DNA of 64,000 nt from Devosia faecipullorum. Its GTDB lineage: Bacteria > Pseudomonadota > Alphaproteobacteria > Rhizobiales > Devosiaceae. The notes under the pieces are model-generated. The model made no database searches. It was not told the origin of the DNA and was given only the letters and a program-made list of their open reading frames with translations. A program made the position numbers and the translations under genes. The DNA lies in the NCBI RefSeq assembly GCF_015158295.1, contig NZ_JACDXV010000002.1:319501-383500 (forward strand). The letters are read 5' to 3'. Of this stretch, positions 1-16,964 are shown one piece after another; the stretch's first letter is position 1; each line of letters starts with the position of its first letter.

Positions 1-804
1 GATGTCCCCGTTGTCCAGCGCATCGGACAGGCGCTTCAGCACGACGACGCCGACGCCGCTGCCAAAGACCGTCCCGGCGGCGCGATGGTCGAAGGCACGG
101 CAATGACCGTCGGGGGAGAGGATTTCGCCCTCCTGGAACAGATAGCCCCGGCGATGCGGCAATTCGATGGTGACGCCGCCGGCAATTGCAGTCTCGCACT
201 CACCGGCCAGAAGGCTCTGGCAGGCCATGTGCACCGCCACCAGCGAGGTCGAGCAGGCGGTCTGCACATTGACGCTGGGTCCGTGCAGGTCGAAGAGAAA
301 GGAGGCGCGGGTCGCGAGAAAATCCTTGTCATTGCCGGTATGGCGCAACAGGAACATGCCGACCTGATCAACGAGCTGACGATTGCTGCAGACGTTGAAA
401 TAGAAATAGCTGCCCATGCCGCAGCCGGCAAAGACACCGACCGGCCCACGATCTTCATCCGCGGTGCAATTGGCGTCTTCCATGGCCTCCCAGGTGCATT
501 CGAGGAATTGGCGATGCTGGGGGTCCATGATCGCCGCTTCCTTAGGGCTGAGCCCAAAAAAGTCGGCGTCGAACATTTCCATGGCCGGCAATTCAGCGGC
601 GCGACGGACATAATTGGGGTGGTGCAGACGGGTGGCGGATTCGCCGGCGTCCAGCAATTCTTCTTCCGTCAGGTCACGGATGGATTCCACGCCATTGCGC
701 AGATTGCTCCAGAACTCGTCCACATTGCGCGCGCCCGGCACGCGCAGGGCCATGCCGACGATGGCGATGTCGCTGGGGGAATATTGCTCTGAAGACGCGA
801 CCAT
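1..804 (-). CDS. Type I polyketide synthase, N-terminal ketosynthase (partial)
   Basis: Reading the minus strand from an ATG at 802-804 gives 268 uninterrupted codons that leave the window, so only the N-terminus is seen. The protein begins almost directly with a beta-ketoacyl synthase domain: SDIAIVGMALRVPGA at residues 11-25, MDPQHRQFLE at about 93-102, and the active-site nucleophile Cys184 in QTACSTSL, followed by DGHCRAFD at 232-239. The catalytic histidines lie beyond the window. KS domains of this type perform decarboxylative Claisen condensation on carrier-bound chains in the cytoplasm. With only about ten residues before the KS there is no loading domain, so the chain must arrive from another protein. 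The divergent carrier-protein-ended synthetase at 1109-5698 is the obvious donor (inference). Confidence 0.9.
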   Translation of the reverse strand, partial: MVASSEQYSPSDIAIVGMALRVPGARNVDEFWSNLRNGVESIRDLTEEELLDAGESATRLHHPNYVRRAAELPAMEMFDADFFGLSPKEAAIMDPQHRQFLECTWEAMEDANCTADEDRGPVGVFAGCGMGSYFYFNVCSNRQLVDQVGMFLLRHTGNDKDFLATRASFLFDLHGPSVNVQTACSTSLVAVHMACQSLLAGECETAIAGGVTIELPHRRGYLFQEGEILSPDGHCRAFDHRAAGTVFGSGVGVVVLKRLSDALDNGDI

Positions 805-1108: not shown

Positions 1109-4100
1109 TTGGCAATAGGTTTGAACCACGTTCTCATTGGCGATGAATCCCTGCTGGTCCAGTGCGCGGAAATTCTTCGCGAGCGCGAGCACAATGTCGC
1201 TGCCATCGTCACGCAGAACCAGAACATTGCCGATTATGCGAGACAGAACGGGATCGTCGTGCTGGATTGGGACGAGCAGCTGGAGACGCGCCTTGGCAAT
1301 ATCGGTTTCGACTGGCTGTTCAGCATCGCCAATCTGCGCATCATTCCCGAAAAGCTGCTCGAACTCGCGCGTTCCGGAGCGATCAATTTTCATGATGGCC
1401 CCCTGCCGCGCTATGCGGGATTGAACGCGCCCGCCTGGGCACTCATCGAAGGCCAGAGCCAGCATGGCGTGACCTGGCATGGAATGGAAAAGGGCGTCGA
1501 CGAAGGCGTCATCCATGCGCAAAAGCTTTTCGACATCAGCCCCGGCGAGACGGCGCTGACGCTCAACAGCAAGTGCTTTGAGGCTGGCATGGCGAGCTTT
1601 GCCGGGCTCATCGAGCGGATCGAAGCAGGCGCGTTGGAAGGACGAAGCCAAGATCTCGGCCAGCGCAGCTATTACGCCAAGGCCAAGCGTCCCGCAGCTG
1701 CCGGCACGCTGGCTTGGCACCAAAGCGCAGAAACTCTACTGCGTCTCGTCAATGGTCTCAATTTCGGCGCCGGCTATGCCAATCCGCTGGTGACGCCCAA
1801 ATTGCGAGCGTCGGATGGACTTTATCGGATTACCGATTTCAAGATCGAGCCAATGATGTCGGGCGCAATGCCCGGAACCGTCTTGGCCATATCCTCAGAT
1901 GGCGTCAGCGTCGCGACGGGCGACGCCAGTGTAATCGTCAGCGGCCAGCGGCTGGGCGACGATGCTCCGCTATTTGCGGCACTGATGATCGGTGTCATCT
2001 TGCCGACCCTGACAGCCGAGGACGATGCCGCGCTTTCGGCGCAGGTCGAACAGGCGGCGCGCCATGAAGGCACGTTCCGCAAGCGCTTGGTGGCGGCGCA
2101 GGATATCGACCTCATGGACATCGAACCGTTCTCGGAGGCACGGCCAGCTGATGTCGCCAGTGTGCCTCTCGCCTTGCCGGAGGCGGTTTCCAGCGACGAA
2201 AAGCTTCAGGCACTGGCCGTGCTGCTGGCGCGGTTGAGCGGCCAGGAGACCTTTTCGCTCGCCTATCGCTCGGCGAAGACGGCGCATTGCAATGTGCAAT
2301 TCCCGGGCTATTTCGCTGGGGCGGCACCGCTTAATGTGGTGGTGCGGGACGGTCAGAGCCTGGGCGCCTTTGTCGCGGAATTGCAGGATGAGCTGGATAG
2401 GCTGCGCCAGCAAGGTCCGTATCTGTCGGACCTGCAATACCGCTTTGCCGACATCACTGCGCCACGATTGAGCGTGGGACTTCTCGATGGCGAACAGGCG
2501 CTTGTTCTGCCCGATGGCTGCGCCTTTGCCCTGGCGATCATGCCGGGCGGCGACCATCTGCTCTTCGACCGCAATCGCATCGATGGCGCCACGATGGAAG
2601 TGCTGGCAATTCGGCTTGGCCTCGTCGCGGCGGCCTTTGCCGATCGCTCGCAGGCGCTGGCCGAGGTCGCGGTGATGTCCGGTTCCGAACAGGACCAGGT
2701 GCTGCAGGGCTGGAACGATACGGCATTGGCCTATGAGCCGGCCTGCATGCATCAGCTGTTCGAGCGCCAGGCCGATCGCACGCCGGACGCCATTGCCATT
2801 GCCGCTGGCGGCGTTGAATTGAGCTATCGCCAACTCGAGCAGCGCGCCAATGTCCTCGCCAATAAGCTTGTTGCCGCCGGGGTGGGGCCAGACGTGCTGG
2901 TCGGTCTGCATGTCACCCGTTCCGTCGACCTGTTGGCCGGCGCCCTGGGCATTCTCAAAGCCGGTGGGGCCTATGTGCCGCTCGACCCAACTTTCCCCTC
3001 GGATCGCCTGGCCCTGATGGTGGACGATAGCGCCGCGCCCATCGTTCTGGCGGAGCGGGCATTGGCCGGGAGCCTAGACGTGCAAGGCGCACGCATGGTG
3101 GTGATCGAGGATCTGCTCGCGGGCGGTGGCTCTGACGCCCGCCCCGCCGTCGCCGCCGCACCCGATAATCTCGCCTATGTCATCTATACGTCAGGCTCCA
3201 CCGGCCGGCCCAAGGGGGTGATGCTCGAGCATCGCAACGTGGCCAATTTCTTTGCCGGCATGGATCAGCGCATTGCGGTGCCGGAAACCGGCCAGCCGGT
3301 CTGGCTGGCGGTTACCAGCCTCTCCTTCGACATTTCCGTTCTGGAGCTGTTCTGGACGCTGGCTCGCGGCTTCAAGGTGGTGATCCACAATAGCGAATTG
3401 CAGGCGAACCGCGCTGTCACCCCCGCCGCGCCAATGGATTTTGGTCTGTTCTACTGGGGCAATGACGATGGTGTCGGTTCGGGGAAATATCGCCTGCTGC
3501 TGGAAGGCGCCAAATTTGCCGATCAGAACGGCTTTACGGCCATTTGGACGCCGGAGCGGCATTTTCATGCCTTCGGCGGGCCCTATCCTAATGCGGCGGT
3601 GACCGGAGCGGCGGTGGCCTCGATCACCAAAAACCTCTCTATCCGCGCCGGCAGTTGCGTTTTGCCCCTGCACCACCCGGCGCGCGTCGCCGAGGATTGG
3701 GCGGTTCTCGACAATCTCAGCGATGGCAGGGTGGGACTGGCAGTGGCGTCGGGTTGGATGCCGGAAGATTTCGTGCTGCGCCCAGAAAACGCGCCACCGA
3801 ACAACAAGGCGGCGATGCTGCGCGACGTGGAAACGCTGCGGCAGCTATGGCGCGGCGAAAAGGTCGATTTCGCCTTTGGCGAGCGCAATGTCGGGGTGGT
3901 GACGCAACCGCGCCCGGTGCAGAAGGAATTGCCGATCTGGGTGACTACGGCCGGCAATCCCGAAACCTATCGCGACGCGGCGCGGCTCGGCGCCAATGTG
4001 CTGACCCATCTGTTGGGCCAGTCCATTGCCGAGCTCAAGGACAAAATCCAGATCTATCGCGACACGTTGGTGGAAGTCGGGCGCGATCCGGCCGATTACA

Positions 4101-5698
4101 AGGTCACGCTGATGCTGCACACGCTGCTCGGCGCCGATCGGGACGAAGTGCGGGAGCGCGCCCGCGAGCCGATGAAGGATTATCTGCGCAGCGCCACGGC
4201 GCTGATCAAGCAATATGCCTGGGCCTTCCCGGCATTCAAGAAGCCGCAGGGCCTTGCCAATCCCATGGACATCGACCTCCAGGGCCTGGCCCAGGAGGAG
4301 CTGGACGCCATCCTTGACTTCGCGTTCCAGCGCTATTTCGACGATAGCGGCCTGTTCGGAACGGTGGACGATGCGGCCAGCCGCATCAATGAAATTGCCG
4401 CTATCGGGGTCGACGAAGTGGCCTGCCTGATCGATTTCGGCGTCGCCACCGACCTCGTGCTAGAACGCATGGATGTGCTGGCCGAACTCGTCGCCCGGTG
4501 CAAGCCCGCTGCCGCGACCGGCGCGGAGACTGCACCTGCCAGTCTGGCGGATCAGATCGTCGACAATGGCGTCACCCATCTGCAATTTACGCCCTCGATG
4601 GCACGAATGTTCCTGATGGGGGAAGCCGACCGCAGGGCGCTGGCGCAGGTCAAGCATCTGTTCATCGGCGGCGAAGCCTTGCCGGGAAGCCTAGTCGCGG
4701 AATTGCGCGCGGCAACGCCGGCGACCATCGAGAACATGTATGGCCCGACCGAGACCACGATCTGGTCCTCGACCGTGGCGGTTGCGGCCTCCGAACCTGG
4801 CGTGGTGCCCTTGGGGCGGCCGATTGCCAATACGCAGCTCTATGTGCTGGACCAGCATCAGCGTCCCGTGCCGCCAGGCGTTCCGGGCGAGCTCTATATC
4901 GGTGGCGACGGGGTGGGCCGGGGCTATCACAACAGGCCTGATCTCACTGAAGAACGGTTTCTGAATAACCCCTTTGCCGGTGGGCGTATGTATCGCACCG
5001 GCGATTTGACTCGCTTCCTGCCGGACGGGCGACTGCAATTTCTCGGGCGGACCGACCATCAGGTCAAGGTGCGCGGCTATCGTATCGAACTGGGTGAGAT
5101 CGAGGCGCGCATCTCCGAATTTCCGGGCGTGGCCGAGGCCGTGGTCGTGGCACGCGAGGATCGGGCCGATGACACGCGCCTCGTGGCCTATCTGCGCCAA
5201 TCGGGCGCGGTCGATGAAGCCCTGCTGCGGGCGCATCTGGGCGAGAGCCTGCCGGGACATATGATTCCGGCGCATTTCGTTACCCTGCAAAGCTTCCCCC
5301 TGACCCCCAATGCCAAGGTGGACCGCAAGGCGCTGCCGGCGCCTGAACCGGTCCGGCTCGAGGCCGAAACCCTCGACTATGTGCAGCCGGACAATTCGAT
5401 GGAGCGGGGAATAGCGGCAGTGTTCCAGCGCATTCTGGGGGTGGAGCGGGTGGGGCTGTCCGACAGTTTCTTCGCCCTTGGCGGACATTCCCTGCTCGCC
5501 GTCCAGGCCCACAGGGATCTCAAGGCCTCAATCGCGCCGAACATGGCCATAACCGACCTTTTCCGTTTCCCCACCGTTGGTGCCCTTGCGGCCCATCTGA
5601 GCGATGCCAGCGCCTCATCGGACCGGCTGAGCAAGGTGGCTGACCGCGCAGCGGCGCGGCGTGCCGCCCTGGGCAATCGACCGTTGCGGGCCTCCTGA
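1109..5698 (+). CDS. Nonribosomal peptide synthetase: formyltransferase, condensation-like remnant, adenylation domain with inserted LLM monooxygenase, carrier protein
   Basis: The 1529-residue protein starts at TTG, with GGGGAGA six bases upstream. Residues 1-310 form a formyltransferase domain with catalytic-type N93, H95 (NFHDGPLPRYAG) and D131. About 335-540 resembles only the C-terminal lobe of a condensation domain; no HHxxxDG is present. The adenylation domain has A3 (YTSGSTGRPKG, about 692-702) and A4 (FDIS, 740-743). It is then interrupted at about 776-1130 by a luciferase-like flavin monooxygenase (TIGR04020/MupA-Atu3671 type) and resumes with A5 (YGPTETT, 1211-1217) to A10. A carrier domain with GGHSL, Ser1461, ends the protein. 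My alignment to GrsA gives pocket residues D741 I742 L745 Q1159 F1185 G1187 M1210 I1218 W1219 K1403, close to the glycine code. There is no thioesterase, so the product must pass to a partner. The function is inferred as loading, oxidising and formylating an amino acid, probably glycine. Confidence 0.88.
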   Translation: MAIGLNHVLIGDESLLVQCAEILREREHNVAAIVTQNQNIADYARQNGIVVLDWDEQLETRLGNIGFDWLFSIANLRIIPEKLLELARSGAINFHDGPLPRYAGLNAPAWALIEGQSQHGVTWHGMEKGVDEGVIHAQKLFDISPGETALTLNSKCFEAGMASFAGLIERIEAGALEGRSQDLGQRSYYAKAKRPAAAGTLAWHQSAETLLRLVNGLNFGAGYANPLVTPKLRASDGLYRITDFKIEPMMSGAMPGTVLAISSDGVSVATGDASVIVSGQRLGDDAPLFAALMIGVILPTLTAEDDAALSAQVEQAARHEGTFRKRLVAAQDIDLMDIEPFSEARPADVASVPLALPEAVSSDEKLQALAVLLARLSGQETFSLAYRSAKTAHCNVQFPGYFAGAAPLNVVVRDGQSLGAFVAELQDELDRLRQQGPYLSDLQYRFADITAPRLSVGLLDGEQALVLPDGCAFALAIMPGGDHLLFDRNRIDGATMEVLAIRLGLVAAAFADRSQALAEVAVMSGSEQDQVLQGWNDTALAYEPACMHQLFERQADRTPDAIAIAAGGVELSYRQLEQRANVLANKLVAAGVGPDVLVGLHVTRSVDLLAGALGILKAGGAYVPLDPTFPSDRLALMVDDSAAPIVLAERALAGSLDVQGARMVVIEDLLAGGGSDARPAVAAAPDNLAYVIYTSGSTGRPKGVMLEHRNVANFFAGMDQRIAVPETGQPVWLAVTSLSFDISVLELFWTLARGFKVVIHNSELQANRAVTPAAPMDFGLFYWGNDDGVGSGKYRLLLEGAKFADQNGFTAIWTPERHFHAFGGPYPNAAVTGAAVASITKNLSIRAGSCVLPLHHPARVAEDWAVLDNLSDGRVGLAVASGWMPEDFVLRPENAPPNNKAAMLRDVETLRQLWRGEKVDFAFGERNVGVVTQPRPVQKELPIWVTTAGNPETYRDAARLGANVLTHLLGQSIAELKDKIQIYRDTLVEVGRDPADYKVTLMLHTLLGADRDEVRERAREPMKDYLRSATALIKQYAWAFPAFKKPQGLANPMDIDLQGLAQEELDAILDFAFQRYFDDSGLFGTVDDAASRINEIAAIGVDEVACLIDFGVATDLVLERMDVLAELVARCKPAAATGAETAPASLADQIVDNGVTHLQFTPSMARMFLMGEADRRALAQVKHLFIGGEALPGSLVAELRAATPATIENMYGPTETTIWSSTVAVAASEPGVVPLGRPIANTQLYVLDQHQRPVPPGVPGELYIGGDGVGRGYHNRPDLTEERFLNNPFAGGRMYRTGDLTRFLPDGRLQFLGRTDHQVKVRGYRIELGEIEARISEFPGVAEAVVVAREDRADDTRLVAYLRQSGAVDEALLRAHLGESLPGHMIPAHFVTLQSFPLTPNAKVDRKALPAPEPVRLEAETLDYVQPDNSMERGIAAVFQRILGVERVGLSDSFFALGGHSLLAVQAHRDLKASIAPNMAITDLFRFPTVGALAAHLSDASASSDRLSKVADRAAARRAALGNRPLRAS

Positions 5699-5708
5699 GG
5701 CAAGCGCG

Positions 5709-6422
5709 GTGCTGGACGGCCTGTTTGAGCCGAATATTGCTGTGGCCTATGGCGATCCAAGGGCGAATTGGCCCCTGGCTCTGCCGCAGGAGGAAGCCTC
5801 GATCCGCCATGCGGTGGTGAAACGGCAAGGGGAATTCCGGGCTGGGCGGGCTCTGGCCCGTGAGGCGATGGCGAAACTAGACTTGGGGCCCGCGCCGATA
5901 CTCTCCGCCGAAGATCGTGTGCCGATCTGGCCCGATGGCATGGTCGGCAGCATTAGTCATTGTGACGATTTCTGCGTGGCGGCAGTAGGTAGACGTGCTG
6001 ACGGCCTGATGGCCATCGGGGTGGATGTGGAGCCGGCGGAGGCTTTGCCCGAGGGCGTGGCGGATGAGATTTGCCTTGCGGACGAAAAGATCTGGCTGGG
6101 CAAACTTGATGATCGCGAGAGGCCGATTTTTGAACGGCTGATCTTTTGCGCCAAGGAAAGTGCCTATAAGTGCCAATATGGTGTGACGGGGCAGCTATTT
6201 GGCTTTGATGCCCTTTGTGTGCATTTCGACCACGCCCGGTTTCAGTACGAGGCCCGGTTCATGCGCGCTATTGGCCCCTTCCGTATCGGCCAGACCCTCT
6301 TTGGCCGCTATGTCATGACTGAAAAGCATCTGGTGACCGGCATGGCTCTTGGCTCTGACGCTTTTTCCCGTGCTGGCCAATCGGAAATCGGGCGCAGCGG
6401 CCGAGATTGGCCACTGGCCTGA
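5709..6422 (+). CDS. 4'-phosphopantetheinyl transferase, EntD/Sfp-like
   Basis: This enzyme transfers phosphopantetheine from CoA to the serine of carrier proteins. The 237-residue product carries the family motifs: GSISHC near residue 80, GVDVEP with the Mg-binding acidic residues near 107, and the C-terminal CAKESAYKCQY helix near 155-165. The start is taken as GTG at 5709 because GAGG at 5697-5700 sits eight bases ahead and overlaps the stop of the synthetase. The gene follows that synthetase with a gap of only ten bases, so the two are probably co-transcribed, and the enzyme probably activates Ser1461 of that protein and the carriers of the divergent PKS. It ends tail-to-tail with the next glycosyltransferase. 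Confidence 0.9.
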   Translation: MLDGLFEPNIAVAYGDPRANWPLALPQEEASIRHAVVKRQGEFRAGRALAREAMAKLDLGPAPILSAEDRVPIWPDGMVGSISHCDDFCVAAVGRRADGLMAIGVDVEPAEALPEGVADEICLADEKIWLGKLDDRERPIFERLIFCAKESAYKCQYGVTGQLFGFDALCVHFDHARFQYEARFMRAIGPFRIGQTLFGRYVMTEKHLVTGMALGSDAFSRAGQSEIGRSGRDWPLA

Positions 6423-6430
6423 ATGGTTCC

Positions 6431-7627
6431 TCAGGGCCTGGGCCCGTGGCGGTCGGTGCGGATCCAGCCCTTGCTGCCCTTGCCACGCGCCAGGGCAGCG
6501 TAGAGGCCCAGCTTGCCACCGATATAGGGAATGATGCCCAACAGCGCTCTCGCCGGCAGAACTCTGCGGCCATGGGTGAGCCAGGCCAACGCCACGCCGC
6601 CGCCAAGCAGCGCGGCATTGGCAAGTGCCAGTCCGATGGCAAGGGGTGGCAGGCCCAACAGCATTGTTAGACTCAGCGTCGAAACCAGGGCCGCGCCCAC
6701 CAGTACCAACAACATGGTCAGGGGCGGCACCAGCAGGTCGAGGATGAGCGTCAGAGCATCGAGGCGGCGCGTCTTGATGGCGGCAGGCACCAGGCGCAAG
6801 GCCTGTCCGATCATGCCCAGATGTCCCTGTTCCCATCGCTGGCGTTGCGTGGCGGCGCCGGTGCTGGAAAGCGGAAAGATGCTGTCTATCCGCGCTTCGG
6901 CGACGAAAAGCGGCGGCGTGCCGGCAAGGGCAAGCTCGACCCCGAGCTTCATGTCTTCGACAAGGCTGGCATGGGCCAGGTCGGCATCGCGAATGATGGC
7001 CCAGGGAAATGCCATCCCGGTGCCGGTCAATTGGCAGGGCAGGTTCAACCGGGCCAGTCCCCGGGGGCGCAGGTGGTTTTTGACGCGAAAGGCGAAGGCG
7101 GCTACGGCCAGTTTCAGATCGTCATTGTGAGGGGCATGCATCAGGTAGAGCCCTTGCGTGGGCCGCCCATGGTCCATGGCCTGGCGCGCCAGGACATCGA
7201 TGCAGCCAGGCTTCAGGGTGCAATCCGCATCAACGATGATGACGATTTGGGGCGGTGCTGCCTCAAGGTACCTTATTCCATAATCGAGCGCATAGCCCTT
7301 GCCGCGACGGGCGCTGTCGTGCCGCTCGATGACCTCGGCGCCCGCCCGTCGCGCCAGATCCGCCGTTGCATCCGTGCAATTGTCGGCAATGACGATCAGC
7401 CGGTCCTTCGGGGTGAGCTGCGCACGCAGATTGTCCAGAGTGGCGGCGATGCCGGCCTCTTCCTGATGCGCCGGCACGAGGATGGCCAGATCGGGGCGGC
7501 TTGCCGTTTGGACACTTCGACGCGGCGGCAACAGGCCAGCCACGATTTCGACCGCAAAGGTGAGAACCGGAACCAGGAGAACGAAATTGATCAAAATCAG
7601 CAGGGCAGACGCGACGGGCATCGACAT
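6431..7627 (-). CDS. Membrane glycosyltransferase family 2
   Basis: The 398-residue protein has an N-terminal membrane segment (about residues 5-30) and a GT2 catalytic domain: ILVPAHQEE at 49-57, the nucleotide-sugar binding D133-A-D135 in IVDADC, VEDM at 223-226 and QRQRW at 261-265. Several hydrophobic segments follow from about 275 to 350. This D,DxD,ED,(Q/R)xxRW arrangement is that of membrane-bound transferases acting at the cytoplasmic face in exopolysaccharide synthesis. It stands at the edge of the polysaccharide locus and is divergent from the WecG/TagA-type transferase, sharing the upstream region that holds a long palindrome. The sugar donor cannot be told from sequence. Confidence 0.85.
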   Translation of the reverse strand: MSMPVASALLILINFVLLVPVLTFAVEIVAGLLPPRRSVQTASRPDLAILVPAHQEEAGIAATLDNLRAQLTPKDRLIVIADNCTDATADLARRAGAEVIERHDSARRGKGYALDYGIRYLEAAPPQIVIIVDADCTLKPGCIDVLARQAMDHGRPTQGLYLMHAPHNDDLKLAVAAFAFRVKNHLRPRGLARLNLPCQLTGTGMAFPWAIIRDADLAHASLVEDMKLGVELALAGTPPLFVAEARIDSIFPLSSTGAATQRQRWEQGHLGMIGQALRLVPAAIKTRRLDALTLILDLLVPPLTMLLVLVGAALVSTLSLTMLLGLPPLAIGLALANAALLGGGVALAWLTHGRRVLPARALLGIIPYIGGKLGLYAALARGKGSKGWIRTDRHGPRP

Positions 7628-7727: not shown

Positions 7728-7816
7728 GCTGTTTCATCCTTTATAGGACGCCATCATAGGTTTGCGTGGCCGTCCTCCCTATAATGAAGGTGATGTTGTG
7801 AAATAGTCGCGTGATA

Positions 7817-8617
7817 ATGACCGAACTTCTGCTCGCCGATTACGATATCCGTCCCCAAGCCCGCATCAAAAGGCATAATTTCGTAGGGGCATTTTTCGAC
7901 CACATCGAATTTGCGGACGTTTTGGTTTCCATCGAGCAGGCGCGCACCAGTCCCGGCTTCCGCTATGTGGTGACGCCCAATGTCGATCATGTGGTGCGCC
8001 TCGCCCAGCAACCCGAATATGCGCACTTTTATGAAAAGGCATGGCTCAGCCTGTGCGACAGCATGCCGATCAAGCTGGCGGCGCGTCTCAAGAGGCTCGA
8101 CCTGCCAAGGGTCACCGGCTCCGATCTGACCGTGCAATTGTTCAAGCAGGTCATCAAAGCCGGCGATCGGCTGACGCTTATCGCGCCCTCTTTGGCAGTG
8201 GTGGAGGAACTTCAGATCCAATATCCCATGCTCAAGATTCGCGCGCATGTGCCTGCGCTGGGGGTGCTCGACAAGCCGGACGAGCTTGAGCGCTGCGTGA
8301 AATTTGTAGTGGCCGAGCCGGCCGATTTCGTATTTCTGGCCATCGGCTCTCCGCAATCGGAGGCCATAGCGTTCCGGCTGTCCCAAAATGCGCGCGCCAC
8401 TGGCACCTGCCTATGTATCGGCGCGGCTCTGGAATTCATGACCGGCATGAAGCAGCGCGCGCCCCGGTGGATGTCCAATCTTGGCGTTGAATGGCTGCAC
8501 CGGCTGGCATCCGATCCCAAGCGGCTGTGGCGCCGCTATATTCTTTCCATTCCCACTTTCGCCACGCTGATTGTCCAGGAGCTGTCGAAAAAAGATGGAA
8601 GCAAACCACGCGCCTAG
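7817..8617 (+). CDS. WecG/TagA/CpsF family glycosyltransferase (GT26)
   Basis: The product is a soluble transferase of about 266 residues that by family adds a sugar to a lipid-linked intermediate (UDP-ManNAc or UDP-glucuronate-type donors are known). Visible family features are TPNVDHVVRL, the TGSDL catalytic segment, FLAIGSPQSE and the C-terminal NLGVEWLHRLASDPKRLWRRY. The start may be ATG at 7817 or GTG at 7811; neither has a good ribosome binding site. It belongs to the exopolysaccharide locus. Its stop overlaps the stop of the convergent GH9 gene by four bases. Confidence 0.87.
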   Translation: MTELLLADYDIRPQARIKRHNFVGAFFDHIEFADVLVSIEQARTSPGFRYVVTPNVDHVVRLAQQPEYAHFYEKAWLSLCDSMPIKLAARLKRLDLPRVTGSDLTVQLFKQVIKAGDRLTLIAPSLAVVEELQIQYPMLKIRAHVPALGVLDKPDELERCVKFVVAEPADFVFLAIGSPQSEAIAFRLSQNARATGTCLCIGAALEFMTGMKQRAPRWMSNLGVEWLHRLASDPKRLWRRYILSIPTFATLIVQELSKKDGSKPRA

Positions 8618-11346
8618 CGGCCGTGGATATAGAGCGCCAGAGCCGCCATGGTGGCGATGGATTGGTGCACGGTATATTCCTGCTGCATGATCAGGGCGGG
8701 GTGCTCGACCAGATATTCGAAATAGGGCAAGGCAAAACGGGGCGGGTCGATGCGCCGATCGGCAGCATGTTCGTCGGTGCCGCTTTCGGGCAGCGGTGAC
8801 CAGGGCGGGCCGAATATCCAGCCATAAGCCGTCTCGGCTTGCCCGGCCCAGCCATAGATGACGATACCCGGCGGCGGGGCGACGCCCATGGCCAGCCGAT
8901 CCTCATGCAGCGGATTGTTGACCGAACGCAGACCCAGCCCGGTGACGAGGCTGCGGCCCAGTTGATTGGCCCCGAGCATGGAATGATACCCATGCTCGAG
9001 GGCACGCAGAATGGCGGGATCGGCTGAAATTTGATGGGCGCGGATCAGCGTCTGCAATTCATGATAGCCGGGCGCACCGCCCTGCCCCCAGCCGGCGGGG
9101 GCGTCGGGATGCTTGAGGCTGGGATAGGCGAAGTGCTCCTGCGCTTCCACCACAAGTGTTGCCTCGGCCAAGATACGCGCGGTGATCTCGGCCCTGATCT
9201 TTGCATCGCCCCCCTCGGCCTGCAGATAGTCCCAGGCTGCGTCGCCCTTTTGGGTGAATATGCCCGGATCGGCGCGCCAGCCTGCCTCGAACAGGGCTGC
9301 AAAGGATGGCTCGCCGGTCAGCCGAAAGAGGGCAGCGGCGGCCGCGCTGCGATAGGGTGCGGTTTCATCAGCCAGGGCGTCGCGGCGCAGCGGCCAGGAT
9401 ATGTCGTCGAACAAACCGGTTCTGGTGCCGATGGCGATGGCGTCGGCGTAATAGGTGTCGGGATCGGCAAAGCCGCGCTCGCCGGCGGCCCAGGCGTCGA
9501 CCGCGCTATCGGCATAGAGATTGGCCCATTGGTCATGGTCCAGCTCTTTCAATATCCGGGCCATGCTGGCGGCGCTGGCGGCATATTGGTAGCTCGACAG
9601 ATGGTCGGGGGCATAGGCGAAGACGGTCTGGTGTTCAAGAAAGCTCGGCTCGCCGCGCAACGGGTGTTCGGCGCTTTCGATGCCGCCCCTGACACTGCCG
9701 TCCGCTGACTGCAGACGCCGGAAGAAGTCGAGCCCCCAGAGCGCCTCGTGCAGGATGTCGGGCAGGGAGTTTAGATCGGCATAGAGCGGATTTCGCAGCG
9801 CCTCGGCGGATTTCGGCAGACCCGTATCGTTGAGTTCGCGCCCGGCCGGGGTGGTTTCGTGCACCGCAAGCATCAGCCTTGTGACGTCGAGATGCTGCGT
9901 ACGGCGATCCCAATCGCCGGCATCCATATAGCCGCCCCAATAGGTTTGAGGGACGGGGATTTCGGTCAGCCAGTCGGGAGCCGCCGCCGCTGAAAAGGGC
10001 ACGAAACCATTGGTGGACATATTTGACCAGGAGAATGGCAGGCGCGTCTCGAATATGGTGAGGTCGGCGCCGGGCCGGAACGCTTCAGTGCGGCTATAGC
10101 CAAACCGGCCATCGAGTTCGACGCCGCTGCGATGGTTGTAAAGACCCCCCAGAGTGGTGCGTGCGGCCTCGGCCCAGACCCTGTCGGCGATGACCAGCGG
10201 GTCAGAGACGCCGAGGCCCCGGATGAGCAGGTGGTAGCGGCCGTCGCGCTCCGGCGTCCAATTGGCATAGTCGAGCGCAAAGACGAAGGTGCCAGAACGA
10301 TTGGCGCGGTGCGCGGGGGTGGCGATGGCTCCCGGCGCGAACGAGGGCGGCAAGGGCGCGGATAAGTTGCCGAGCGACATGCCGGTCGCATTTGCCGCCA
10401 TGACATCGGCGAATATGGCGCTGGCGTCCTGATCGCCGCCGAGCCGTTCCAGCGCGATGCGTTGGCCCGGGGCAAAGTCATGCGGACCTGCCATCGAGAC
10501 GTCGGTGCCGGAAATGCCGGTCAGCGCCACGGGCTCCGCCGCGCCGTCACGGTAGTCGAGCAGCAGGTTCGCGAGGCCATTGCCGGGCTCCTCGCTGTCG
10601 GGCGCCGAGCGCAGCGTGATCACGCCTGAAAAGACGGTCTCGCCGTGCTCATCGACAATCTCGAAACGGTCGAGACCATAGGTGCGAAAATCGATGGCGC
10701 CCTGATCAGGGCCGCCCGGCAGCCAGAGTGAGAGAAATCCCAATTTTCCCAGGTCGCCCCGCCTGTGACCATTCTGGGTGAGGTGGATGGCGGAGGCACG
10801 TATGCGCTTCTCATCGACTTCGAACGCGGCGTCGGGCAGCAATCCTTGCGGCCAAGAAATGCTATAGGAGCCTGCCGGCAAAGACCCGTCGAGCTTGAGA
10901 TAAAGGTCGTGGCGGAAGCTGGCGCCGGACCGTGTATCGCCATGGGACGACGGAAATATGCCGGCGTCATATGGCATGGATTTGCGATAAACGGCCAGTA
11001 CCTCCCGGTCACCAATCGGCGGATAGGCAGAGGCATCGTCAATGGTTTTACGGTCGAGATAAATCGAAGGCGGCTTGTCGGCGAGGCGAAGGTGATCCCG
11101 CTGTGGGCCGATGACCATGCCGCGCCCCGCGGCAAAATCGATCCAGGCGCCGTTGCGTTCGGGGCGGGGGGCCTCAAGGCCGATAATTTCGCCACGAATG
11201 AAGGGTGGGTCTTCGAGGATTACATGCACGATGTCGGGGGCGGCCAAGGCGATTTCGACGACACGCACAACTTGACCTTGGGCATGGCCGGGCGCGCCGA
11301 ACCAGAAGAGAGCGGCCTGCAGCAGCCCGATCATCAGGGCGCGCAT
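8614..11346 (-). CDS. Secreted glycoside hydrolase family 9 (cellulase-like)
   Basis: The 910-residue protein has a signal peptide (MRALMIGLLQAALFWFGAPGHAQ), a long N-terminal beta-rich part that fits the Ig-like domain common in GH9 enzymes, and a C-terminal GH9 alpha/alpha barrel. The barrel shows GGYMDAGDWDRR with D475 and D478 as the usual catalytic base region, ADLNSLPDILHEALWGLDFF, VTGLGLRSVNNPLHED, and near the C-terminus E890 in QQEYTVHQ as likely proton donor. GH9 enzymes cut beta-1,4-glucans. Within an exopolysaccharide cluster it probably trims, releases or edits the polymer in the periplasm rather than feeding the cell (inference). It diverges from the polymerase gene at 11432. 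Confidence 0.88.
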   Translation of the reverse strand: MRALMIGLLQAALFWFGAPGHAQGQVVRVVEIALAAPDIVHVILEDPPFIRGEIIGLEAPRPERNGAWIDFAAGRGMVIGPQRDHLRLADKPPSIYLDRKTIDDASAYPPIGDREVLAVYRKSMPYDAGIFPSSHGDTRSGASFRHDLYLKLDGSLPAGSYSISWPQGLLPDAAFEVDEKRIRASAIHLTQNGHRRGDLGKLGFLSLWLPGGPDQGAIDFRTYGLDRFEIVDEHGETVFSGVITLRSAPDSEEPGNGLANLLLDYRDGAAEPVALTGISGTDVSMAGPHDFAPGQRIALERLGGDQDASAIFADVMAANATGMSLGNLSAPLPPSFAPGAIATPAHRANRSGTFVFALDYANWTPERDGRYHLLIRGLGVSDPLVIADRVWAEAARTTLGGLYNHRSGVELDGRFGYSRTEAFRPGADLTIFETRLPFSWSNMSTNGFVPFSAAAAPDWLTEIPVPQTYWGGYMDAGDWDRRTQHLDVTRLMLAVHETTPAGRELNDTGLPKSAEALRNPLYADLNSLPDILHEALWGLDFFRRLQSADGSVRGGIESAEHPLRGEPSFLEHQTVFAYAPDHLSSYQYAASAASMARILKELDHDQWANLYADSAVDAWAAGERGFADPDTYYADAIAIGTRTGLFDDISWPLRRDALADETAPYRSAAAAALFRLTGEPSFAALFEAGWRADPGIFTQKGDAAWDYLQAEGGDAKIRAEITARILAEATLVVEAQEHFAYPSLKHPDAPAGWGQGGAPGYHELQTLIRAHQISADPAILRALEHGYHSMLGANQLGRSLVTGLGLRSVNNPLHEDRLAMGVAPPPGIVIYGWAGQAETAYGWIFGPPWSPLPESGTDEHAADRRIDPPRFALPYFEYLVEHPALIMQQEYTVHQSIATMAALALYIHGR

Positions 11347-11431: not shown

Positions 11432-12823
11432 GTGCCAAAGGTATCGCAGTTGAAATTCCTGGCTTTGTACATAGCTGCGCTGGCGGCGTTCCCGCTCAGT
11501 CTGCTTTTGCGAAGCAATAGCGGTTTTCATCAGATTTTCTGGACCATTTTCGGGGCGCTGCCGTTTCTGGCTGTGGCGCTACCGATTTTTGTGACCGGGA
11601 TTGTGATCTTCGAAGGCTGGATCGGCTTTGTCTATAGCCTTGAAATCGCGCTGCTCGATATTCTGGCTATTGCCGGGCTGATGAGCCTGGGCGCCAGGAG
11701 TATTGCCATACCGCTTCGATATACGCTGCCGGTGATTTTTTTCGTCTTTACCGCCGTCCTTTCCATCTTTCAGGCCGATGAGCCGCTGGCAGCGACATTT
11801 GGCGCCTGGCAGTTCGCGCGCATGGGCCTAATCATGATCGTCGTGGCCAAGCTCTGCTATGAGCCAAAGCTGGCCCTCAGCCTGTTGCGCGGCATGGCCA
11901 TCGGCATGACCATGCACCTTGTTGCGGTTATCTATCAGCGATTTGGCCTGCACCTGACGCAGACGCCGGGATTGTTCATTCATCAGAACACTTTGGGCAT
12001 GACTGCACACCTGGTCCTGTTCCCCTGCCTTGCCTTGCTCCTATATGGCTATCCGGGCCTGCGCTCGCAGTTGGCGACAGCCATGGCGACCATCGTGGTG
12101 GTGGTGTTTACCGCCTCCCGCGCCGCCGTCGGGTTTTCCGCCTTTGGCATTGGCCTCATCTATTTGTTGTCCGCCCTGACCGGGCTCACCGGACGCAAGA
12201 TGCTCTTTGCCGCTCTAGGAGTGTTGGGCCTGGCCGTGATCGGGCCGGTGGTGATTTTCTCATTCGAGCAGCGGTTCGAGGCCGCCCCCCTCACTGAGGA
12301 TCAATATGACGAGCGCGCGGCGTTCAACCGGGCGGCGACCTATATTATCGAAGACCACCCCTTCGGCGTCGGTTCGAACCATTATGTGCATGTGGCGAAA
12401 AATGAAGGTTATTCCGAACGCGCCGGGGTCGCACCCTTTGAGGGGAACCGCAACAATATCGTCCATAACGCCTATCTGCTGGCCGCGGCCGAGACCGGTT
12501 ATCTCGGGCTGTTGAGCTTCGCCATCGTGCTGCTGGTTCCGCTTTTTGTTACGGTGCGCGCGGGCTGGCGCTACCGGGACAGCGCGGAGGGACATCTCCT
12601 GCTCGGCTTCGGCGTGGCGATGGCGGTGATCTATGTGCACTCGTTCTTTGAATGGGTGATCTTCGCCAGGGAAGTTCAATACCTTTTGTTCATGACCATG
12701 GGCATGTCCTATGGGATCGTGCTGCGATTGAGGACCAGTGCGCCGGTGCGCCGGAATCGTGGCTCTGGCCTCGGTCTGGACCGGGTGATGGTCCGGCCTG
12801 TCGAGACGCCGCAATCCAGGTAG
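11432..12823 (+). CDS. O-antigen ligase/Wzy-type polysaccharide polymerase
   Basis: The 463-residue integral membrane protein has about ten to twelve hydrophobic segments and a large polar loop around residues 280-345. That loop contains the Wzy_C/WaaL-like stretch with GVGSNHYVHV and HNAYLLAAAETGYLG, where a conserved histidine is expected. Such proteins polymerise or ligate undecaprenyl-linked repeat units at the periplasmic face. GTG at 11432 is the longest start; TTG at 11450, nine bases after CAAAGG, is an equally possible start. It lies upstream of the export genes in the same direction and is best read as the repeat-unit polymerase. Confidence 0.83.
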   Translation: MPKVSQLKFLALYIAALAAFPLSLLLRSNSGFHQIFWTIFGALPFLAVALPIFVTGIVIFEGWIGFVYSLEIALLDILAIAGLMSLGARSIAIPLRYTLPVIFFVFTAVLSIFQADEPLAATFGAWQFARMGLIMIVVAKLCYEPKLALSLLRGMAIGMTMHLVAVIYQRFGLHLTQTPGLFIHQNTLGMTAHLVLFPCLALLLYGYPGLRSQLATAMATIVVVVFTASRAAVGFSAFGIGLIYLLSALTGLTGRKMLFAALGVLGLAVIGPVVIFSFEQRFEAAPLTEDQYDERAAFNRAATYIIEDHPFGVGSNHYVHVAKNEGYSERAGVAPFEGNRNNIVHNAYLLAAAETGYLGLLSFAIVLLVPLFVTVRAGWRYRDSAEGHLLLGFGVAMAVIYVHSFFEWVIFAREVQYLLFMTMGMSYGIVLRLRTSAPVRRNRGSGLGLDRVMVRPVETPQSR

Positions 12824-12945: not shown

Positions 12946-14181
12946 ATGATGAACATCTCAAGGCAGTTTGTGGCGCTGGGCGCAACGATAATGACCATGC
13001 TGTGCCTCGGCCTGGCGGCGTCGCCCGCCAGGGCCGAGGATTATCTGCTCGGTGTGCAGGACCGCTTGCGCGTCCAAGTCGCGGAATGGCCGACGCTCAG
13101 TGGGGACGTGGTCGTGGGGGCGGCCGGAGAGATTGCGCTGCCGGTTGTCGGCCGGGTCAATGCCGACGGCCTCACTGCCAGCGAACTGGGTCACCAGATC
13201 GCCACGCGCCTCCAGGAAGCGGCGGGGCTGCGAGACCTGCCGGATGCGCTGGTGGAAGTGGTGGCCTATCGCCCATTCTACATTACCGGCAATGTCACAA
13301 ATCCCGGCGAGTATAATTATCGCCCCGGCATGATCGTGCTCAACGCCGTGAGTATTGCGGGGGGCATGTATCGTTCCGACCAGCGCTCGGCCTGGGATAT
13401 CGAACGGGTGGCGATCAGCAGCCTCGGCGAAGTTTCGGTCCTCGATCTGCGCATGCGCGATCTCAAGGCCCAGCAGATCAGGCTCAAGGCCCAGATCGAT
13501 GGGCTCGAAGCCTTTCCCATGCCGGAGGCGCAATCCGATATTGAAATGACGCAGGCGCTGGATGAGCAGCAGCGTCTCTTCGAGGACAGCCGGCAACGGC
13601 GCAATGCCGCGCGCGCCAATCTCAGCGCCTCCATCGCGAGCCTCGAAAAAGAGCTCGATGCCATCAATATATCGCTCCGCGACAGCGCCGCCCGGCGCGA
13701 AGCCACCGAGACCGAACTGGCCCAGGTCCGCGAACTGGTCAAACAGAACCTGGCGGTGCAGCGGTTGGCGCCGCTCGAAGCCAGCCTCGCCCAGACGACC
13801 CGCGATCAGCAGGACCTTGAAATCAGCCGCCTTCGCGCCGAACAGCGCATACTCGAAGTGCGCAGCGAATTGACCCAATATGACGAATTGCGCCGCGCCG
13901 AGGCCATGGGCGAATTGCAGCGGGTGAATGCGCATTTGCGTGAGGTCGAGGAACAGCGTGTGGCGCTCGCCAAGCTTTTGAACGGGGCAAGCTATTATTC
14001 CGGTGAAGCGGCGCTTGCCCTCGAAGAAGACGACGCCGAGCCGCAATATCTGATCGTTCGTGTCGATGGTGACAGCGTCACCGAAACGGCGGCGACCGAG
14101 CAGACGCGCGTCATGCCCGGCGATATCGTCAAGGTGATCCGCCGGTTGAGCGGCGCCCCGGCGCCGCTGCTGGCGAACTGA
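12946..14181 (+). CDS. ExoF/Wza-like polysaccharide export protein with coiled coil
   Basis: The 411-residue secreted protein has a signal peptide ending in SPARA at residue 30. A polysaccharide-export domain follows (YLLGVQDRLRVQV...) and then an SLBB segment at about 112-145 (FYITGNVTNPGEYNYRPG). From about 165 to 350 it is rich in Leu, Glu, Gln and Arg heptads, which predicts a long coiled coil like that of rhizobial ExoF. It probably forms or gates the outer-membrane/periplasmic export channel. No lipobox cysteine is visible at the cleavage site. The next gene, encoding the inner-membrane copolymerase, starts 22 bases downstream. Confidence 0.87.
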   Translation: MMNISRQFVALGATIMTMLCLGLAASPARAEDYLLGVQDRLRVQVAEWPTLSGDVVVGAAGEIALPVVGRVNADGLTASELGHQIATRLQEAAGLRDLPDALVEVVAYRPFYITGNVTNPGEYNYRPGMIVLNAVSIAGGMYRSDQRSAWDIERVAISSLGEVSVLDLRMRDLKAQQIRLKAQIDGLEAFPMPEAQSDIEMTQALDEQQRLFEDSRQRRNAARANLSASIASLEKELDAINISLRDSAARREATETELAQVRELVKQNLAVQRLAPLEASLAQTTRDQQDLEISRLRAEQRILEVRSELTQYDELRRAEAMGELQRVNAHLREVEEQRVALAKLLNGASYYSGEAALALEEDDAEPQYLIVRVDGDSVTETAATEQTRVMPGDIVKVIRRLSGAPAPLLAN

Positions 14182-14203
14182 ACCCGGTCATGAGGATGCT
14201 GTG

Positions 14204-15754
14204 ATGCTCGAAGCCAAGATTGGTGCAGCCGAGATGGCCCCCCTTGCGCCCACGACGGTCTATGACTGGAAATGGATGCTGAAAACGCTGTTGCGTTATC
14301 GTCTGCCTATCCTGATCCTGCCGCTGGTCTGCCTGGTCGCCGCGGTGTTCTACGTGCAGACACGGCCCCCCCAATATACGGCGGCGGCGACGCTCAATGT
14401 CACCAATCTGCGCCTGTCCTCGAGCGACCGTGATACGTTCTATGCCGAGGCCCTGTTTGATCCGACCTTTATCGAAACCCAGATCCAGGTGATTGCATCG
14501 ACCCCAATTGCCTATGCTGTGATTGCAGACCAGGGGATTGCCGCGGAAGCGGCGGACGAGGTTGACGGCGCCCTGAGGGCGTTTCGCGCAGGCCTCAATG
14601 TGCAGCGGCTCGGCCAGAGCAGCCTGGTGCAGATCGCCTTCACCGCCACCGATGCGCAGCGCGCCGCGGATGTCGCCAATGCGGTGGTCGAGGCCTATGT
14701 GGAAAAACTCCTGGTCGACCGGGAGGAAACAGTCGAAGCGGCCAGCAGCTGGCTGCGCGACCGCCTGCGCGGGGTGGGCGCACAGGCGCATGTGGTTTCC
14801 CCGGCAACTGCTCCGCTCGACAAGAGCGGAATGGGTGGTACGACCATTGTCGCCCTGGCGGTGATCGGCGGTGGCTTTACCGGCATGGTGCTGTCGCTGC
14901 TCCTCGGTTTCCTCGATCGGCGCATCCGCGAGCCAGAGCAGATAGTGGCCGCCATTGGCGAAATCTGCCTCGGCATTGTGCCCAGGCTCAAGCAGAAGCG
15001 GCCCAAAGGCGGCGGGCAACCGGCTCCGGGCTCGTTTTCGTTTGACGCGGCTTCCTCGTTGCTCTCGGAAGTCAGTTCGCATCCGTCCGGCGCCATGGGA
15101 CAGAGCGTTCGCGCCGCCGCCATTGCGCCATCGCGCCGTCAGCGCATCGCCGTCACCTCGACCTTTGCCGGAGAGGGCAAGACGACGATTGCCAGCAATC
15201 TCGCCCTGATGGCGGTGCGGACGGGATCACGCGTACTCCTGGTCGATGCCAATGGCTATAATTCGGGCCTGTCGCGCCAACTAGCGCCGCAGGCCGAGCG
15301 GGGTATCTTCCACTTCCTCGCCGGTTCCGAAACACTTCTGTCCGACGTCGTGCTGCGCGACACCAGGACTGGCCTTCACCTCCTGCCCATCGGCAGCGGC
15401 GATACGGTCGGTCCGGAAATGCTGTGGTCGGATCGCATGTCCCGGCTGTTCGAGCAGGCCGAGGACTATGACCTCATCGTTTTCGACATGCCGCCGCTCA
15501 TTGCCAGTGGCGATCTGCGCGCGGCGGCCAGTTTCGTTGATAACATTCTGCTGGTGATTGCCTGGAATCGGGTCAGCGATACGCAATTGCATGCAGCGCT
15601 CAATCTGGCCGGAACCGTTCACGCCCGCCTCAAGGGGGCAGTCCTCAACCTGGCCTCATTGACCGCGCTGGAGCGCTGGGCTTCGCCGGAGGCGTCGATC
15701 ATCGCCCAGCAGCGCTCGCTCACCCGTTCCGGCAAGCCGGCAAAAAAAGTCTGA
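14204..15754 (+). CDS. ExoP-like polysaccharide copolymerase with BY-kinase domain
   Basis: A Wzz-type N-terminal domain has membrane segments near residues 30-50 and 210-232. It is fused to a cytoplasmic bacterial tyrosine-kinase-like ATPase with Walker A STFAGEGKTTIASN and Walker B LIVFDMPPL. ATG at 14204 is preferred because GAGGA at 14192-14196 is seven bases ahead; a GTG at 14201 is also possible. Two things are odd. The periplasmic part is only about 160 residues, much shorter than in ExoP-type proteins, and the Walker A' motif reads VDAN instead of DxD, while the C-terminus lacks a tyrosine cluster. It probably sets chain length and works with the ExoF-like protein; autophosphorylation is doubtful. 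Confidence 0.86.
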   Translation: MLEAKIGAAEMAPLAPTTVYDWKWMLKTLLRYRLPILILPLVCLVAAVFYVQTRPPQYTAAATLNVTNLRLSSSDRDTFYAEALFDPTFIETQIQVIASTPIAYAVIADQGIAAEAADEVDGALRAFRAGLNVQRLGQSSLVQIAFTATDAQRAADVANAVVEAYVEKLLVDREETVEAASSWLRDRLRGVGAQAHVVSPATAPLDKSGMGGTTIVALAVIGGGFTGMVLSLLLGFLDRRIREPEQIVAAIGEICLGIVPRLKQKRPKGGGQPAPGSFSFDAASSLLSEVSSHPSGAMGQSVRAAAIAPSRRQRIAVTSTFAGEGKTTIASNLALMAVRTGSRVLLVDANGYNSGLSRQLAPQAERGIFHFLAGSETLLSDVVLRDTRTGLHLLPIGSGDTVGPEMLWSDRMSRLFEQAEDYDLIVFDMPPLIASGDLRAAASFVDNILLVIAWNRVSDTQLHAALNLAGTVHARLKGAVLNLASLTALERWASPEASIIAQQRSLTRSGKPAKKV

Positions 15755-15758
15755 TTCC

Positions 15759-16964
15759 ATGTCTCTGGGCTATCTGCTCAACACCTATCCCGCCCCCAGC
15801 GGAACCTTCATCCGCAATGAGATCGAGGCGTTGGAAGCGCGTGGGTTGGAGGTGCGCAGGCTGGCTGTCCGCCGTTTTGCCGGCCAGCTGGTCGATCAGG
15901 CCGACCGGGCCGAGCAGGATAAGACCCATTATCTCCTCGATGGCAATGGCGCGCAAATGGTGCTGGCGGGCCTTTGGCACGCGCTGACCCATCCGCTCGA
16001 TTTCGCGCGGGCGCTGCCCGCCTGGTATGGCTTGCTGCGTGAGGCGGGCGGCGGGGTCGTGCGCCATAGTGCCTATCTGGTGCAGGCGGCCTATCTGACT
16101 CAATTGGCCGAGCGTGATGGCATCACCCATATCCACAGCCATTTCAGCAATAATGCGCCGGCGGTGGCGATGCTCTCGCATAGAATGGGTGGGCCGAGCT
16201 TCAGCTTTACCGCCCATGGCCCGGACGAGTTCGTCGACGCGCCAAAACTGAGTTTTGCAGCCAAGATCGCCGATGCGGCCTTTGTCATCGCCATTTCCGG
16301 CTATTGTCGCGAATTGCTGAGCGGGCTCGCTGCGAACCGGACGGATGCAAAAAAAATCCATATCGCCCGCTGCGGGCTCGACCTCGACAAGTTCGACCCG
16401 GCCCCGCCAGTCGCGTCGCATAATCAGACATTGGTCTGTGTCGGGCGGTTATGCCCGCAAAAGGGGCAGGTGCATATTCCAGCGGCGGTCGCCGCGCTCA
16501 GGCCACGATTTCCCGATCTCAAGGTAATTCTCGTAGGTGACGGGGAGAGCCGCGCCCTGATCGAAGCCGAAATCGAAAAATATGGTGTGGGGGATGCGGT
16601 GCACCTCCATGGCTGGGCCGACAATGGGACGGTGCGGGAGCTTATCGCGAAGAGCCGCGCATTGCTGCTGCCCAGCTATGCCGAAGGCCTGCCGGTGGTG
16701 ATCATGGAGGCTTTTGCCCTGGGGCGGCCGGTGATTTCAACGACGATTGCCGGCATTCCCGAACTGGTGGACGAGCAATGCGGCTGGTTGATCGCACCCG
16801 GCGACCATGAGCAATTGGTCGCCTCCATCCGTTCGGCGCTCACCGCCAGCCCGGAACGCCTGGCGGAGATGGGCCAGGAAGGGCGCGCCCGGATCGAACG
16901 CCAGCACGACCGCCGCCTGCTGGCGCAGACGCTCGAGACCCTGTTCCGCCAAAACGGGGCTTGA
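15759..16964 (+). CDS. Glycosyltransferase family 4
   Basis: The 401-residue GT-B protein begins with a Rossmann-like acceptor domain (NTYPAPSGTFIRNEIEALE) and ends with a GT1/GT4 donor domain: VGRLCPQKG near residues 228-236 and the EGLPVVIMEAFALGRPVI box near 308-325 with the E-x7-E pair. Retaining transferases of this family add hexoses to lipid-linked oligosaccharide in the cytoplasm. It begins four bases after the copolymerase stop, so it is translated from the same transcript. Donor and linkage are unknown. Confidence 0.87.
   Translation: MSLGYLLNTYPAPSGTFIRNEIEALEARGLEVRRLAVRRFAGQLVDQADRAEQDKTHYLLDGNGAQMVLAGLWHALTHPLDFARALPAWYGLLREAGGGVVRHSAYLVQAAYLTQLAERDGITHIHSHFSNNAPAVAMLSHRMGGPSFSFTAHGPDEFVDAPKLSFAAKIADAAFVIAISGYCRELLSGLAANRTDAKKIHIARCGLDLDKFDPAPPVASHNQTLVCVGRLCPQKGQVHIPAAVAALRPRFPDLKVILVGDGESRALIEAEIEKYGVGDAVHLHGWADNGTVRELIAKSRALLLPSYAEGLPVVIMEAFALGRPVISTTIAGIPELVDEQCGWLIAPGDHEQLVASIRSALTASPERLAEMGQEGRARIERQHDRRLLAQTLETLFRQNGA

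Follow-up and report, generated by a model that had tools for sequence, protein, structure and literature searches.

The gene at positions 1109-5698 of a 64,000-nucleotide stretch of the Devosia faecipullorum genome (contig NZ_JACDXV010000002.1, positions 319,501 to 383,500; this whole stretch is called the window below) encodes a synthetase in which a formyltransferase (FT), the C-terminal lobe of a condensation domain, a glycine-type adenylation (A) domain with an inserted monooxygenase (MOX) and a carrier domain are joined on one polypeptide. It is neighboured by a polyketide synthase (PKS) gene and by genes of exopolysaccharide type. We tentatively propose, with not quite an even chance of being right, that this protein is a loading module, the start of a short hybrid line that serves an exopolysaccharide: glycine, a formyl group and an alpha-hydroxyl would be brought together, handed to the PKS and end as a polysaccharide substituent.

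Domain architecture of the synthetase

The preliminary description of this DNA, made from the sequence alone, had given the order as formyltransferase, condensation-like lobe, split A domain and carrier, and this order was recovered by domain searches. Formyl_trans_N was found at residues 55-160 (1.6e-18) and Formyl_trans_C, weakly, at residues 199-279 (2.2e-4, 21.8 bits against a cut-off of 21.1). AMP-binding matches in two stretches starting at residue 551 and AMP-binding_C at residues 1330-1403, while Bac_luciferase covers residues 785-1103 (1.7e-49) and PP-binding residues 1435-1497. The MOX belongs to the MupA/Atu3671 family TIGR04020, which matches residues 778-1127 with 469.4 bits (curated cut-off 244.45) over model positions 1-340 of 341; among the six matches in the source genome (3.4 Mb, 22 contigs) the synthetase alone scores above the cut-off. 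As motif A4 lies at residues 740-749 and A5 at residues 1209-1219, the MOX is inserted between them.

The residues expected for activity are well kept among 86 aligned proteins. The three formyltransferase residues named in the preliminary description, N93, H95 and D131, are present in 83, 83 and 82 of them, respectively, and the carrier serine, Ser1461, in 85. The MOX motif ERHFHAFGG is kept in 82 of the 86, and a looser form of it in just 13 of the 20 proteins of a distant set. The ten-residue code of the A domain is DILQFGMIWK, with seven of the ten positions invariant in all aligned rows; we take it to specify glycine, as the preliminary description had done. The rows without N, H or D at the three FT positions show gaps, apart from a single F at position 95 and a single S at position 131. 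Both probably stem from L087 (7631-12301), whose FT, still detected as a match, has the motif NFFDGPLP, in which F replaces the catalytic H; the aligned D site is occupied by S, and a D is found one residue earlier. It may be a natural variant in which formylation was lost. By motif, the FT is also lacking in L042 and L074, which are short frames, and in L094 (10001-15108), located on a Deinococcus plasmid, where an FT match begins upstream of the MOX reading frame and PKS and capsule-type genes adjoin.

By sequence, the FT is best matched by ArnA (5.2e-21), followed by Fmt (about 1e-13) and LgrA (3e-4). The structure predicted by AlphaFold for residues 1-560 from 37 sequences (mean pLDDT 94.5) can be aligned over about 310 columns with ArnA (2bln, E 7.7e-24) and with Fmt structures, and both FT subdomains are therefore present. 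Sequence and fold thus both place ArnA and Fmt much closer to the FT than LgrA, and an LgrA-type enzyme was rejected as its nearest kin. The preliminary description had compared the protein with the formyl loading of gramicidin. With the linear gramicidin synthetase LgrA (6mfz), the best whole-protein sequence match in PDB, the order F-A-PCP at initiation is indeed shared; the FT itself, however, is of the full ArnA/Fmt type and distant from that of LgrA. To our knowledge, LgrA lacks both a MOX and a half condensation domain separating F from A.

The condensation-like lobe proved to be real as well. A profile built from 29 loci for residues 345-545 matches condensation domains of nonribosomal peptide synthetases (NRPS) in PDB. 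Its last part, which includes the linker between condensation and A domain, corresponds to about residues 400-470 of the condensation constructs (best 1.4e-14), and its first part, weakly, to about residues 250-330 (best 3.6e-4). Judged from these matches, residues 345-545 are the C-terminal lobe of a condensation domain. The window protein has no HHxxxDG motif, and its alignment with a C-A(MOX)-T protein of Streptomyces (42.9% identity) starts at residue 369. Four FT-less A(MOX) relatives were inspected, L129 and the stand-alone proteins L102-L107 not being among them, and each has an entire condensation domain, with the motifs HHIATDG (Streptomyces), HHIAGDG (Nostoc), HHLLMDG (L130) and PHIVLDG (L131), the last read by eye in a domain with a near full-length alignment to that of Streptomyces. 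HHxxxD is absent ahead of the A domain in 99 of 100 proteins that carry the FT motif; the exception, L038, has it inside the C-terminal lobe. The FT therefore stands at the position of the catalytic lobe, as if it had been substituted for the lobe bearing HHxxxDG.

Each half of this architecture has a published counterpart. CongA (conglobatin), PtxE (phthoxazolin) and OzmO (oxazolomycin) likewise combine a formyltransferase, a glycine-type A domain and a carrier and are followed by a PKS; in the available descriptions, on which the comparison is based, the products are free and no inserted monooxygenase is mentioned. According to the accessible part of the conglobatin paper, formylation on the carrier was shown for linear gramicidin and is proposed for CongA and PtxE. 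The window protein has the traits of such F-A-PCP loaders, namely an FT with intact N, H and D on the same protein and no functional condensation domain ahead of the A domain. In the accessible literature, the myxothiazol and melithiazol modules are likewise described with a MOX between A4 and A5 of a glycine A domain, to which C-alpha hydroxylation is attributed, and corallorazine-like A2-MOx modules with a monooxygenase inside a glycine A domain. The former, which we take to be MtaG and MelG, act on a chain and end it behind a whole condensation domain, whereas the window module has an N-terminal FT in place of the acyl-adding lobe, half a condensation domain and the thioesterase on a separate PKS, and would start the chain. 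The closest solved MOX structure is the PuwE domain (6ket, 1.4e-104). As far as its description is accessible, this MOX does not split an A domain but lies, together with an aminotransferase, between PKS and NRPS modules, and is proposed to yield a 2-hydroxyacyl unit. Furthermore, TIGR04020 includes stand-alone monooxygenases of 360-368 amino acids that score above the cut-off. Six of the seven matches from 39 genomes of L015's genus (Agrobacterium sp. by title) are of this kind (L102-L107) and have a carrier-domain match at a distance of a few hundred bases.

In the open-licence literature, neither a module with FT and MOX nor an exopolysaccharide decorated by a PKS/NRPS line of this kind was found. 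This suggests that, while formyl-glycine loaders and MOX-split glycine A domains have each been published, their combination and its link with exopolysaccharide are apparently undescribed. That one polypeptide would activate, oxidise and formylate one amino acid, as the preliminary description had suggested, is consistent with the intact motifs and these precedents.

Occurrence of the architecture and neighbouring polysaccharide genes

The preliminary description had offered no view on how widespread the architecture is. At least 559 candidates with a MOX relative were found among genome contigs, in few of which the FT was checked. The counts below refer to the best 80 loci, chosen by MOX similarity, many of them from related genera, with the partner genes found by tblastn. 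An FT is present in 79 of the 80, the other (L074) being cut by a contig end. A ketosynthase (KS) was detected in 67, with best segments 64-85% identical, and a 4'-phosphopantetheinyl transferase (PPTase) in 69. In the Aliiroseovarius locus L092 (19498-28746), the annotation gives the partner as a single NRPS/PKS gene of about 3080 amino acids, which is bigger than the usual PKS. In an evenly drawn sample of the class, 11 of 385 genomes, including that of the window, score above the TIGR04020 cut-off, and seven of the 11 matches are located in frames of 1503-1630 amino acids. In the phylum of L060, a Myxococcales metagenome-assembled genome, 23 of 235 genomes have a MOX match at E 1e-80 or better, and 18 of the 20 regions taken have an FT, 11 of these with a KS and four with a PPTase. 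A unique or strain-specific fusion was thus rejected: many Rhizobiales and Rhodobacterales genera, as well as a further phylum, share the architecture.

In a MOX tree of 68 rows, the proteins with an FT are not cleanly separated from the others (7 changes, bootstrap 4-7). A clade of 54 rows (100/97) includes the cut L115, and its lone label without FT, L075, is an artefact: the motif search covered the first 400 residues and the FT of L075 starts near residue 447. Outside this clade, long branches with and without FT are intermixed, so that one fusion and several cannot be told apart.

At least one class of polysaccharide genes was found in 74 of the 80 loci, at least two in 46 and a class other than glycosyltransferases in 49. 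By class, glycosyltransferases were found in 71 loci, flippase-like proteins in 35, sugar transferases in 24, export proteins in nine and Wzy in seven. Among 16 control stretches of 20 kb from 16 of the locus genomes, one has a class (a glycosyltransferase) and none has two classes or a class other than glycosyltransferases; since the queries came from the same clusters and the loci are related, this contrast is not a probability. A distant KS (27%) was seen in one control. None of the polysaccharide classes was found beside the four FT-less relatives. In the phylum of L060, 12 of the 18 FT loci have at least one class, three at least two and six a class other than glycosyltransferases, and the link is therefore weaker there. 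Using PF02397 as marker in 30 genomes, a copy was located within 30 kb in 26 by coordinate, a figure obtained without a check of contig identity; for at least G404 and G400 the nearest copy lies on another contig, and the tblastn count is preferred.

Single loci illustrate the neighbourhood. The Aminobacter plasmid pUSP1 has an almost identical gene order plus a flippase. On a Ruegeria conchae plasmid, rhamnose and exosortase genes adjoin a set of PKS, family 2 glycosyltransferase, synthetase, PPTase and SGNH-like protein, and a second Ruegeria plasmid has the PKS, a glycosyltransferase and the synthetase amid sugar genes, with a transposase fragment near the expected PPTase site. Additionally, genes for the VPLPA-CTERM exosortase XrtD lie near the synthetase on Roseobacter group plasmids (L090, 134-5220; L092, 33413-34350), in L090 together with rhamnose genes.

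Gene cluster in the window

The features of the cluster are compiled in Table 1. The PKS next door had been noticed in the preliminary description and was confirmed by Pfam (ketoacyl-synt, Acyl_transf_1, KR, PS-DH, PP-binding, Thioesterase); the exopolysaccharide-type cluster around it, with glycosyltransferase, Wzy, export and Wzz genes, had been missed. The PKS gene extends about 5.6 kb beyond the window start (L008, 10424-16804), and the polysaccharide-type genes reach to about 19.2 kb of the window. With a polyprenyl glycosylphosphotransferase about 9 kb upstream, one of five in the genome, a Wzx/Wzy-type gene set comprising this enzyme, Wzy, export and chain-length proteins and glycosyltransferases is present.

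Table 1. Features of the synthetase and its gene cluster in the window.
Feature	Position	Strand	Remarks
Type I PKS, KS-AT-KR-DH-ACP-TE, 2126 aa (N-terminal part)	1-804	-	divergent; Pfam
Synthetase, FT - condensation C-lobe - A(Gly) with inserted MOX - carrier	1109-5698	+	1529 aa, TTG start
FT, ArnA/Fmt type, N and C subdomains	1109-1978	+	N93, H95, D131
Condensation domain, C-terminal lobe	2141-2713	+	HHxxxDG lobe absent
A domain, first part (to A4)	2741-3403	+	
Inserted FMN-dependent luciferase-like MOX	3440-4489	+	TIGR04020
A domain, second part (A5 onward)	4514-5338	+	
Carrier domain	5411-5599	+	Ser1461
PPTase	5661-6422	+	longest reading, GTG inside the end of the synthetase gene
Family 2 glycosyltransferase	6431-7627	-	EpsU-like (under that model's cut-off)
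WecG/TagA/CpsF glycosyltransferase	7811-8617	+	
Glycoside hydrolase family 9	8614-11346	-	
Wzy_C protein (O-antigen ligase/polymerase type)	11432-12823	+	
Polysaccharide export protein	12946-14181	+	
Wzz chain-length/ATPase protein	14201-15754	+	
Family 4 glycosyltransferase	15759-16964	+	EpsE-like (under that model's cut-off)
Family 2 glycosyltransferase	16970-17950	-	
SGNH/GDSL-like protein	18173-19234	+	N-terminal hydrophobic helix

The last gene of the cluster encodes a protein without a match to any Pfam family. All 24 rows of an alignment with its relatives keep the motifs GHSL, TE and DxxH unchanged. Its predicted structure (mean pLDDT 76.6) has one PDB match under E 0.001, the DUF4886 protein 4i8i (8.8e-7), which we take to be SGNH-like; the SGNH esterase 3mil and PatB match at just 0.018-0.03, mixed with unrelated folds. 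Because of its predicted N-terminal hydrophobic helix, the protein is probably exported. Relatives follow the PPTase gene in several Rhodobacterales and a glycosyltransferase gene in several Rhizobiales, and queries of both kinds match the same place in L137.

Relatives of the glycoside hydrolase family 9 gene were found in seven of the 80 loci; its presence perhaps points to a beta-glucan-like backbone of the polysaccharide. ABC transporters flank the cluster on both sides, and their best scores, below cut-off, are to models such as those for 2-aminoethylphosphonate and taurine/sulfonate transport and not to siderophore models. One of them lies about 9-13 kb before the window (L008, 3068-7033) beside the sugar transferase gene, with best, sub-cut-off scores to 2-aminoethylphosphonate models. 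Outside the cluster, a sulfatase of SGSH_C type is encoded at 48980-50557 of the window, in the half that also has TRAP transporter, coaBC-like and topA-like genes.

Proposed function and alternative explanations

In the proposed route, the split A domain, with its glycine code and motifs, would activate glycine and load it onto Ser1461 of the carrier, and the FT, whose fold and triad are of ArnA/Fmt type, would formylate the glycyl amine. The formyl group would thereby supply the N-acyl group that the MOX of a glycine module otherwise meets on a growing chain. Going by the published precedents, the MOX may then hydroxylate the alpha carbon, using reduced flavin mononucleotide (FMN) from a general reductase. 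MOX domains meet N-acyl-glycine and the FT N-acylates the first residue, which suggests why both sit together. The N-formyl-alpha-hydroxyglycyl unit would be handed to the PKS, extended and released. In the weakest step, the product would become a polysaccharide substituent, which the SGNH-like protein perhaps attaches, moves or trims on the outside of the cell. More generally, NRPS/PKS lines of this kind in Alphaproteobacteria and Myxococcota may work for the cell surface and not for a free product, placing a polyketide acyl group primed with N-formyl-(hydroxy)glycine on an exopolysaccharide via a cluster-encoded glycosyltransferase or an exported SGNH-like enzyme; this wider claim is plausible, though short of probable.

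Several observations weigh against this proposal. The controls all came from genomes of the loci L010-L046, none of them assigned to the Rhodobacterales by its title, and the polysaccharide queries, taken from these very clusters, favour the loci over the controls. In 25 of the 80 loci a glycosyltransferase is the sole polysaccharide class, and eight of these 25 have just the one placed between PKS and synthetase in several Rhodobacterales, which may belong to the assembly line itself. Of the 13 loci in which no KS was found, seven are short or truncated, while L029, L040, L041, L053, L063 and L067 are full 21 kb stretches. Relatives of the SGNH class were found in just 41 loci. The second motif of the PKS DH domain reads, by eye, DIATG instead of D-x-x-x-Q/H, so that dehydration is uncertain. 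A flippase search, confined to PF13440, found no copy within 250 kb of the cluster, the four copies in the genome lying on contig C1, on contig C3 or more than 250 kb away on C2, the contig of the window. Finally, a Pfam scan of 20 neighbouring proteins detected no flavin reductase, whereas in Streptomyces one is encoded directly beside the FT-less relative.

The fate of the hydroxylated unit could also differ. It might lose formamide while still carrier-bound, leaving a glyoxylyl-carrier to prime the PKS, with the polysaccharide role unchanged. This course of events is unlikely but a serious contender, as the hydroxylated glycine of myxothiazol and melithiazol is said, in the accessible parts of two papers, to fall apart to carrier-bound glyoxylate (PMC10204066, PMC11342130) and the insertion site and glycine code of the window protein match those modules. 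It would imply, with the same rather low likelihood, that the FT serves solely to make glycine a substrate of the MOX. Cleavage is not obligatory, however, since solanimycin B is reported, in the text available, with an intact alpha-hydroxyglycyl residue. If, on the other hand, the MOX were inactive or acted elsewhere, formylglycine alone would be the starter, as in a conglobatin-like F-A(Gly)-T loader, with the product again on the polysaccharide. Such loaders feeding a PKS are known from the accessible descriptions, but the retained ERHFHAFGG motif makes this quite improbable, as does the better conservation of the MOX (67-80% identity between the window protein and the 80 loci) than of the FT (38-55%), in a comparison tilted by the choice of the loci by MOX similarity. 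Moreover, the 20 neighbours include no ATP-pyrophosphatase family protein according to the Pfam scan, the family of the CongE/OzmP cyclodehydratases described, in the sources available, for oxazole formation in the CongA and OzmO clusters. An oxazole starter of the conglobatin/oxazolomycin type was likewise rejected, with no supporting gene among these neighbours.

It is also conceivable that the line makes a free metabolite, such as a siderophore, antibiotic or signal, and that the polysaccharide genes are adjacent by chance or shared regulation. ABC transporters on either side of the cluster would fit such a product, as would the name of the MOX family, which comes from an Agrobacterium gene that we believe to be siderophore-associated. 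Clusters of this type are, furthermore, listed as ordinary hybrids, like the homoserine lactone-NRPS-PKS hybrid on a 225 kb plasmid of Paracoccus marcusii CP157. This plasmid is probably that of the relative H14, and its synthetase is a candidate member of the listed cluster; the main text of the CP157 genome paper contains none of the terms 'polysaccharide', 'glycosyltransferase' and 'capsul'. Nevertheless, a free metabolite is improbable. Polysaccharide genes are found in 74 of 80 loci but in one of 16 control stretches, and also in 12 of the 18 FT loci from the phylum of L060; no TonB receptor was detected among the 20 neighbours scanned with Pfam, and the flanking transporters have their best, sub-cut-off scores to models other than siderophore ones. 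A siderophore cluster in particular was rejected, as no supporting gene was found among the 20 neighbours and the transporter scan is not in its favour.

The synthetase gene is named after its monooxygenase in the genome annotation, and the clusters are filed as ordinary secondary-metabolite clusters. The architecture can be described as a swap of a formyltransferase for the acyl-adding condensation lobe, either of which may provide the MOX with an N-acyl-glycine. With FT and MOX on one protein, the order of formylation and hydroxylation is directly testable. The polysaccharide role, if true, would be the more far-reaching result: many bacteria from soil, from plants and from the sea would bear polysaccharides with a substituent made by an NRPS/PKS line, which a metabolite hunt in the culture medium would miss and which has apparently not been sought before.

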